Source of the DNA: Aurantiacibacter luteus
GTDB lineage: Bacteria > Pseudomonadota > Alphaproteobacteria > Sphingomonadales > Sphingomonadaceae
Assembly (NCBI RefSeq): GCF_001010945.1
Contig: NZ_LBHB01000001.1
Location: 744,001 to 808,000, forward strand
DNA: 64,000 nucleotides
Direction: 5' to 3'
The notes under the pieces: model-generated
What the model was told of the DNA's origin: nothing
The model's database searches: none
Seen by the model: the letters and a program-made list of their open reading frames with translations, nothing else
Translations under genes and position numbers: made by a program
Shown: in pieces, positions 50,097-53,621 of the stretch
Numbering within the stretch: the stretch's first letter is position 1
Layout: each line of letters opens with the position of its first letter

Positions 50097-50100
<4 letters not shown>
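49342..50100 (+). CDS. mazG: Nucleoside triphosphate pyrophosphohydrolase MazG
   Basis: A 252-residue tandem MazG that hydrolyses non-canonical NTPs. First repeat: RDPERGCEWDRAQDFASIAP then YTIEEAYEVHDAIE and LCGELGDLLFQVVFHARM, with the metal-binding EExxE and ExxD; second repeat has LVEELGELAEA and AGDVLFVAVNIVRKY. The ATG has only a weak site (TGATTATG). Its TAA overlaps the hflX stop on the other strand. Confidence 0.95.
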
Positions 50101-51419
<1,319 letters not shown>

Positions 51420-51421
51420 GA

Positions 51422-52060
51422 TCAGTCGTCGTCGCCCGGTTCGTCGTTGGCGGTCTCATCCCCGTCATCCTCGGCAAAGCCGTCGTCGGTGAGATCGACA
51501 GGGGTGGCGGGCTGGATCGTCGAAACGGCGTGCTTGTAGGCAAGCTGGACGTAGCCGTCGCGCTCCAGCAGCATGCAGAACAAGTCATAGGCGGCGATAC
51601 GGCCCTGCAGCATGACGCCATTGACGAGGAACATCGTCACCTGCACCGCGGCATCGCGCACCCGGCTGAGGAAAATATCCTGCAATACGCGTTGCTTGGG
51701 ATTGCCATTGAAGCCCGTGTCGAAGCTGTCGGCATCGACCGGGTTGGCGGGCATGATTGTGCTGATCGCATGCTTGTAGACAAGCTGCGACTGTCCATCG
51801 CGGCGCAATAGTATCGAGAAGTTGTCGAACCAGGTGACGATGCCCTGCAGCTTCACGCCCTTCACCAAGAACATGGTGACGGGCATTTTCTCGCGACGCA
51901 GGTAGTTGAGGAAGATATCCTGCAGATTACCCGTCTTCGGTCCGCTCGCGGAAGGCTTGCGGCCGGTCGCCGGGCGCATACCGGTGGGAGCAGGTGCTGC
52001 GGGCGCGGTGTCCTCTTCGCGTTTGGGCCGCGGTCGGGCCGAAAGGGTACCCTTGGTCAT
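51422..52060 (-). CDS. hfq: Hfq-like RNA chaperone with two tandem Sm domains
   Basis: A 212-residue protein; normal Hfq is 70-110. Domain 1 spans about residues 45-108 ([32 protein letters not shown]); domain 2 spans about 125-188 ([34 protein letters not shown]). Both keep the QD and YKHA proximal-face residues. Domain 2 loses the rim arginines (RRE becomes RDA) and the distal Lys (K70 to M150). A basic, Pro-rich N-terminal tail and an acidic C-terminal tail flank them. The second of two adjacent ATGs (52060) is chosen because GGAG is six bases away. It sits between ntrX and hflX, matching hfq synteny. Confidence 0.93.
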
Positions 52061-52238
52061 CATCGACTCCGTTATCTTTGGCCCGCCGGGTAATGGCAGG
52101 CGATCTGGCGCGCGGACTGTAAGGGCCGCGCGCCGAACACACCGATTGTGCACCTGCAACATGGCATCTGTGAGGACAAGTTTCGAGAGGGGCAAAAGTT
52201 TCCCGGCGAAAATACGTGCTTTCGGCCCTGCCGCGCGC

Positions 52239-53621
52239 CTATTCGTCCTCTTCCGACTTGCGATCGCTCATGCCCAGCAGCTTGAGCTTCCTGTGCAGTG
52301 CCGAGCGCTCCATCCCGATGAATCCCGCGGTCTTCGAGATGTTGCCGGAAAAGCGCCTGATCTGGATGCGCAGGTACTCGCGTTCGAAGCTTTCGCGCGC
52401 TTCGCGCAAGGGGACGCCCATGAGGTTCGTCAGCCCCGCCCCGGCATCGCTCGCCCCGCCGGTAATCTCCTGCGGCAGGAGGCCGGGGGTGATGGTGTCG
52501 AAGTGCTCGCGCGGGGCGAGGATCACGGTGCGCTCGATCACGTTGCGGAACTGGCGCACGTTGCCGGGCCAGTCGTAGGCCTGCAATGCGGCCATCGCCT
52601 CAGGCGAGATGGCAGGTGGGTTGAGACCCTGTTCGCGCGCGTATCGGGTCACGAAATGCTCGGCGAGCGCGGGCACGTCGTCGCGCCGCTCGGATAGCGC
52701 CGGCACTTCGATCGGCACCACGTTGAGGCGGTAGTAGAGGTCCTCGCGAAAGCGTCGTTCCTCGATCTCGGCGTTGAGGTCCTTGGCGGTCGACGAGACC
52801 ACCCGCACGTCCACGCCCACCTGCCGCGCCCCGCCCACGCGCACGAAGCTCTGGTCGGTCAGCACGCGCAGGATGCGGGCCTGGGTGTTTTCCGGCATAT
52901 CGGCCACCTCGTCGAGGTAGAGCGTGCCGCCGTCGGCGAGCTCCAGCAGGCCGGGGCGAACAAGCTTGCCGTCATCCTCCTCGCCGAACAGCTCCTGCTC
53001 GAAGCGTTCGGGGGTGATGCGCGCGGAATTGACAGTGACGAAGCTCTTGTCCGCACGCGGACTCCAGGCGTGGAGCAGGCGGGCGGCGACTTCCTTGCCC
53101 GATCCCGCGGGACCGCTGATCATCACCCGGCTACCCGTATTGGCGACGCGCTTCAGCGTGGCGCGAACCTGGTTGATGGCGCTGGAATTGCCGGTGAACT
53201 CGTCATGGTTCACCATGCCCTCGCGCAGCCGTTCGTTCTCGCGTCGCAAGCGTTCGGTCTCGGTCGCCCGTTCGACGAGATGGAGCAGCTTGGATGCCTC
53301 GAACGGCTTCTCGATGAAGTCCATCGCCCCGCGGCTGACGGCGGATACCGCGGTGTCGATGTTGCCGTGGCCGGAGAAGATCAGCACCGGAACGCCCGGC
53401 TCGCGCGCCTTGATGGCATCGAGCACCTCAAGCCCGTCGCGCGGGCTCCCGTGCAGCCAGACGTCGAGCAGGACGAGACTGGGCCGCCGCTCGTCGACCA
53501 TTGCAATGGCCGTTTCGCTGTCGCCGGCGGTGCGGCATTCGTAGCCCTCGTCGCTGAGGACACCCGCGACAAGATCGCGAATATCGCGTTCGTCGTCGAC
53601 CACGAGGATATCGAGTGCCAT
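52239..53621 (-). CDS. ntrX: Response regulator NtrX
   Basis: A 460-residue NtrC-family regulator paired with NtrY. Receiver domain ([14 protein letters not shown], phosphoacceptor Asp in [10 protein letters not shown], Lys in FIEKPF); AAA+ domain with Walker [14 protein letters not shown]-terminal Fis-type HTH ([20 protein letters not shown]). The sigma-54-binding GAFTGA loop is absent: [18 protein letters not shown] lies where it should be, so it probably acts without sigma-54, as other alphaproteobacterial NtrX proteins appear to. Its ATG lies 3 bases after ntrY stops. Confidence 0.93.

Follow-up and report, generated by a model that had tools for sequence, protein, structure and literature searches.

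Background

Two Sm-like domains in a single Hfq chain were described by Yang et al. 2010 (PMC2877685) for ZMO0347 of Zymomonas mobilis and for six other Sphingomonadales. The authors asked whether three chains make a ring; the accessible part of their paper does not treat inequality between the domains. Zymomonas hfq mutants show stress phenotypes (PMC2877685, PMC9797736), which implies that this two-domain homologue works in vivo. Two hfq copies are mentioned for N. aromaticivorans (PMC3474761), and in the fitness paper on that species Hfq was found in the reference list only. Burkholderia-type hfq/hfq2 (PMC3474761) likewise amounts to two Hfq domains per genome, but these are encoded by two separate genes. 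Eukaryotic Sm/Lsm rings (PMC2877685) also combine non-identical Sm domains, although they are assembled from seven separate chains. In the one-domain Hfq of Caulobacter, the basic rim of one monomer receives the acidic tip of its neighbour, and rim arginines are associated with annealing (PMC6561178). In Pseudomonas Hfq, distal RNA weaves between six positive protuberances, with each RNA triplet sitting between neighbouring subunits (PMC6422490).

In a homohexamer each mutation appears six times, so that the number of rims, tails or distal sites needed for function is hard to test. Here we describe the Hfq of Aurantiacibacter luteus, encoded within a window of 64,000 nucleotides (the whole stretch of DNA that was analysed). 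It is a real, single-copy protein of one origin and known architecture, and the fixed inequality of its two halves is the part worth testing. The fused architecture is already in print, while the fixed inequality seems to be new: our literature search, which mostly did not reach subscription papers, found no account of unequal halves, of the switch at positions 28 and 31, of the TLSARP peptide or of a measured stoichiometry.

Methods

In all, 996 genomes (G000-G995) were searched with profiles, samples being drawn from the larger groups. The fetched loci yielded 290 Hfq-carrying sequences, 200 with both domains in one ORF and 90 with one domain. Two of the 200 repeat the A. luteus gene and were dropped, leaving 198 rows in which some genes were fetched twice and which contain 170 distinct domain pairs. 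From the 90 one-domain rows, 72 that were distinct and nearly full-length were kept. The genus-level set holds one sequence per genus: 64 two-domain genera, 15 one-domain genera within the family and 42 outside it (57 one-domain genera). Positions 8-63 in comparisons of the RNA-binding faces follow E. coli Hfq numbering. For the random-position divergence test, some residues were assigned to the face on which we take them to lie. AlphaFold2 was run on A. luteus Hfq with 74 aligned sequences.

The A. luteus hfq locus

The features of the gene are listed in Table 1. The plus-strand frame of the same interval contains a stop, and the coding ORF is on the minus strand; the ATG at 52060 gives the 212-residue protein, and the ATG at 52063 is equally possible as a start. 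PF17209 matched the protein twice in hmmscan (E 5.4e-56 for the whole protein, 186.5 bits against a cut-off of 27), with residues 46-108 as the better-scoring stretch. The two domains are 60% identical to each other. The first-pass annotation, made from the sequence alone, had proposed two complete Sm domains in one chain, as these matches bear out. The residues it had singled out (Q47/D48, Q127/D128, YKHA at 95-98 and 175-178, RRE at 55-57, K70, R135-D136-A137-A138 and M150) all carry those numbers in the translation.

The gene lies between ntrX (52239-53621) and hflX (50097-51419), both on the minus strand, again as had been annotated. This order, ntrX-hfq-hflX, is the orthologous hfq position, and among the two-domain rows fetched hflX adjoins in 196/197 and ntrX in 191/197. 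Two bases separate the hfq stop from the listed GTG start of hflX (51417-51424), a spacing at which translational coupling would be possible.

Table 1. Positions of hfq and its features in the window
Feature	Position	Strand	Basis
hfq, 212 aa + stop, two Sm (Hfq) domains in one chain	51422..52060	-	ORF list, Pfam
N-terminal extension, residues 1-45, predicted disordered	51926..52060	-	pLDDT 44-58, residues 1-40
Conserved peptide TLSARP, residues 5-10	52031..52048	-	single clade of 31 genera
Sm domain 1, residues 46-108	51737..51925	-	PF17209, E 7.6e-31, genome search
Domain 1 rim N52...R55 R56 E57 K58 (E. coli 13, 16-19)	51887..51907	-	
Domain 1 distal lysines K67, K70 (E. coli 28, 31)	51851..51862	-	K/K in 64/64 genera
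Linker, residues 109-125	51686..51736	-	near-neutral, mean net charge +0.94 over 64 genera
Sm domain 2, residues 126-188	51497..51685	-	PF17209, E 1.6e-23, genome search
Domain 2 weakened rim S132...R135 D136 A137 A138	51647..51667	-	
Domain 2 N147, M150 (E. coli 28, 31)	51611..51622	-	N/M in 64/64 genera
Acidic C-terminal tail, residues 189-212, 13 D/E, no K/R	51425..51496	-	translation count

Both PF17209 matches in the 2.89 Mb A. luteus genome, which is listed as 100% complete, fall within this hfq, and searches of the genome with PF17209, PF21979 and PF01423 gave nothing else over the cut-off. Two weak sub-cut-off matches lie elsewhere, at C1:642680-642757 (E 0.0107) and C11:790014-790082 (E 0.671), and a second Hfq was rejected, no other match having passed the cut-off. 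A separate single-domain hfq carrying the normal role, which the first-pass annotation had considered, was accordingly not found with these three profiles. The ProQ profile (PF04352) had no match in the genome, so ProQ was rejected as a substitute and Hfq may be the sole RNA chaperone of the Hfq/ProQ kinds in A. luteus.

Distribution and origin of the two-domain form

Within the genus, 38 of 40 genomes had an Hfq match, and all 38 had two. Across the GTDB Sphingomonadaceae, 194 of 199 genomes had a match, with two matches in 167 and one in 26 (matches were counted here, not ORFs); one genome of the family (G046) carries the one-domain gene in two copies. In the rest of the order, 60 of 61 genomes had a match and in none were two domains found in one ORF. 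The Sphingomonadales-wide search suggested by the first-pass annotation thus recovered many two-domain proteins, all of them from Sphingomonadaceae. In the class outside the order, where 240 of 284 genomes had a match, no tandem domains were found, and in the phylum sample of 397 genomes nine outside the class had two matches, all at separate places. Candidates in one genome of the order (G235) and one of the class (G419) were rejected, the paired matches sitting on different contigs. No two-domain Hfq was therefore seen outside GTDB Sphingomonadaceae among the 996 genomes, and no genus contained both forms.

Sequence comparisons indicate that the two-domain Hfq is one fused tandem duplication of the ordinary alphaproteobacterial hfq inside GTDB Sphingomonadaceae. 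In a tree of HflX from 106 chosen rows, all 58 two-domain rows (four genes being entered twice) fall on one branch with an SH-aLRT of 97, and the one-domain members of the family fall outside it. In a tree of HflX and NtrX together, covering 79 genera and rooted by choice on the one-domain rows, a single change suffices for the two-domain state. These two trees support a common origin of the two-domain forms, A. luteus Hfq being of the one-chain, two-domain kind that Yang et al. 2010 describe for ZMO0347. The first-pass annotation had rightly pointed to a sphingomonad precedent. A tree of the domains themselves (65 columns, few supported forks) places domain 2 on one branch (SH-aLRT 89), and domain 1 requires two changes there because of four long rows. 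No loss of the two-domain form was seen in the sampled genera.

Proximal and distal faces

The residues of the RNA-binding pockets are present in both halves. Proximal Q8, Y55, K56 and H57 occur in both domains of 64/64 two-domain genera, so that the first-pass reading of conserved proximal residues (Q8 and YKH 55-57 in A. luteus) extends to all of them. Likewise, distal F25 (Y in E. coli), G29, Q33, Q52 and T61 are present in both domains in 64/64 genera.

Against this background the domains differ at two distal positions. Domain 1 combines K28 with K31, and domain 2 combines N28 with M31, in 64/64 genera; 57/57 one-domain genera have N28 and K31. A fast-evolving genus, g77, is represented in these genus counts by its least changed sequence. 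At row level, K28 in domain 1 holds for 198/198 and M31 in domain 2 for 190/198, the eight exceptions all belonging to g77. Together, positions 28 and 31 contribute a charge of 2 to domain 1 and of 0 to domain 2 (169 and 168 of the 170 pairs), and K/K plus N/M therefore gives two neighbours the same summed charge as N/K in each of two one-domain subunits. At genus level the 28/31 switch has no exception in these sequences, unlike the rim loss described below. The first-pass annotation had domain 2 missing its distal contacts, which holds for position 31, the only switch in domain 2 among the tabulated distal residues, but is too strong for the base pocket, whose residues are kept. It had also missed that domain 1 is itself altered, by N28K.

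Domain 2 has further changes, including Q at position 63 in 64/64 genera (M in 57/57 one-domain genera), N41L in 59/64, W38 to A in 58/64 and D9E in 23/64. Given N41L, which is proximal, and D9E, its U-pocket may not be identical to that of domain 1. Mean identity between genera is 0.72 for domain 2 and 0.85 for domain 1. In the random-position test the distal set of domain 2 had low divergence (0.0238 of draws as low), and that of its proximal set was also low, though not significantly so (0.166 of draws as low).

The rim

Net rim charge (positions 13 and 16-19) averages 2.89 in one-domain Hfq, 2.65 in domain 1 and 0.12 in domain 2. It is +2 or +3 in domain 1 of 64/64 genera, and zero or below in domain 2 of 41/64. 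The domain 2 rim is less basic than that of domain 1 in 55/64 genera and equal or higher in 9/64, so rim loss cannot be required by the basic design. The weak domain 2 rim that had been annotated is thus clear in A. luteus, but it depends on lineage rather than being general. In the random-position test this rim had high divergence, 0.0235 of draws being as high. A loop arginine that E. coli lacks is present in domain 1 of 64/64 genera; at the same place domain 2 has E in 36 and R in 14. The alphaproteobacterial baseline rim is R16-K17-x-K19, from which the RRE of domain 1 departs.

Tails and N-terminal extension

The first-pass annotation had described a basic N-terminal and an acidic C-terminal end, as seen in the A. 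luteus translation, and the acidic tail is typical of its relatives: two-domain C-terminal tails have a net charge of -2 or lower in 63/64 genera. Their mean is -5.08, compared with -4.40 for one-domain tails in the family and -3.71 for other one-domain tails. The acidic tail follows domain 2, and the place of a tail behind domain 1 is occupied by the near-neutral linker.

The 31 genera of one clade, that of A. luteus among them, have a basic extension ahead of domain 1 that contains a peptide near TL[ST]ARP. The basic N-terminal extension of A. luteus Hfq is also longer than that of Zymomonas ZMO0347 (PMC2877685). The N-termini of other two-domain and of one-domain Hfqs are mostly MADKxN-like. 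The number of genera with the motif varies with the pattern used (27, 29 or 31), the first, narrow pattern matching 4 rows only. The peptide was gained once (support 100 in the HflX and NtrX tree). Among 93 distinct genes that encode exactly this motif, most of its codons show each of the four bases at the third position with the residues constant, which argues that the TLSARP peptide itself is selected. Nearly all members of this clade have lost the domain 2 rim, its charge being zero or less in 30/31 motif genera and in 11/33 others. A single gain makes one independent pair and permits no statistical test, so a link between peptide and rim loss was set aside; the Mann-Whitney p ignores kinship and was not relied on.

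Predicted structure and a probable ring of three chains

AlphaFold2 predicted both Sm domains with pLDDT 95-98, with low values at the ends and a pTM of 0.69 for a chain having about 70 low-confidence residues; two of the five models scored far lower (mean pLDDT 56.6 and 54.7). Foldseek matched Hfq chains, and the 50 listed of its 1191 matches (E up to 10) each align 60-68 columns, corresponding to a single domain. By sequence, 35/35 PDB matches cover one stretch. The best PDB match to domain 1 is Caulobacter crescentus Hfq (6gwk; phmmer E 3.2e-30, 77% identity by Foldseek). That protein resembles A. luteus Hfq in its basic rim and acidic C-terminal tip, and differs in having one domain per chain in a homohexamer, with N28 and K31 throughout, six rims and six tails.

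From sequence conservation, A. luteus Hfq probably forms a three-chain pseudo-hexamer in which all six proximal pockets are kept and the rim and backbone sites alternate. Both halves retain the pocket residues despite the divergence of domain 2 elsewhere, which suggests that domain 2 lies in the ring and touches RNA. We infer a ring of three, as the first-pass annotation had, docking of its tails and the following consequences for RNA. Three chains would close a ring of six Sm domains with domains 1 and 2 alternating. Six proximal U-pockets and six distal base pockets would remain, so that sRNA 3' U-tails and A-rich mRNA sites could still be gripped. The two distal lysines, at 28 and 31, lie in domain 1, as does the basic, annealing-promoting rim, and domain 2 of A. 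luteus has neither; if annealing goes with rim arginines, as the accessible text of PMC6561178 has it, three rims would do the annealing. By the Caulobacter geometry, the acidic tip, present on domain 2 alone, would pack against the rim of the following domain 1, and three tails would face three domain 1 rims if that packing is valid for two-domain Hfq. Such a ring would have switchable annealing sites at three positions and blank rims at the other three, together with three inhibitory tails. Its alternation would stem from the fusion of two domains, in contrast to the separate chains of Sm/Lsm rings.

For the distal face, we read residue 31 as belonging to the positive protuberances. As the charge at 28 and 31 is split 2/0 with its sum unchanged, we propose that the base pockets would stay six-fold and the guidance of the backbone become three-fold. 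More tentatively, and with rather less confidence than in the ring, covalent fusion may fix the alternation of a (D1-D2)3 Sm ring such that backbone charge, rims and tails are active at every second position, and A-rich RNA may be guided in three units of six nucleotides rather than in six units of three. Half-different rings seem to have been fixed by evolution across a whole clade, in the cell's only Hfq. One substitution in such a ring would alter one kind of site in half of it, making the stoichiometry of annealing and of autoinhibition by tails testable, for instance in Zymomonas or Novosphingobium, which are tractable and harmless.

Alternative explanations

A three-chain ring could also carry inequality that is no more than drift, a redundant half of the rim and lysine sites having decayed with no new function. 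The faster divergence of domain 2 than of domain 1 fits this account, as does a rim charge that differs between genera and whose loss in domain 2 needs 8 changes on the tree. We nevertheless hold it to be unlikely, since domain 1 gained its K28, and this residue, M31 and Q63 are each present in 64/64 genera, a constancy beyond drift alone.

Alternatively, six chains might form an ordinary ring (or two stacked rings) through domain 1 only, leaving domain 2 to dangle as an additional module for binding RNA. Domain 1 closely resembles the one-domain form (mean identity 0.79) and could build a closed ring by itself, but domain 2 keeps proximal and distal pocket residues, several of which lie between subunits. 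By our estimate, the predicted pTM of 0.69 would require a placed second domain, suggesting a fixed placement of both. Such an assembly appears quite improbable, more so than drift within the ring of three chains that we prefer. Nothing was found in favour of an artefact of sequencing, assembly or gene modelling: the domains are just 60% identical and the same two-domain ORF recurs in 64 genera; this reading, whose probability we consider negligible, was rejected.

Divergent hfq sequences

Two observations on individual hfq genes were made among the fetched loci. A one-domain hfq (L208; G101, C125:2397-2585) is interrupted by a stop codon within its Hfq match; the genome is a draft in 170 contigs, and this is either a broken gene or a sequencing error. 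In genus g77, whose genomes are small (L211, L212, L214-L219), the two-domain Hfq is evolving very fast, with scores down to about 72-90 bits for domain 1 and about 45-58 bits for domain 2. There, M31, the rim residues and sometimes H57 are altered, and Q8, K28 and K56 are unchanged.
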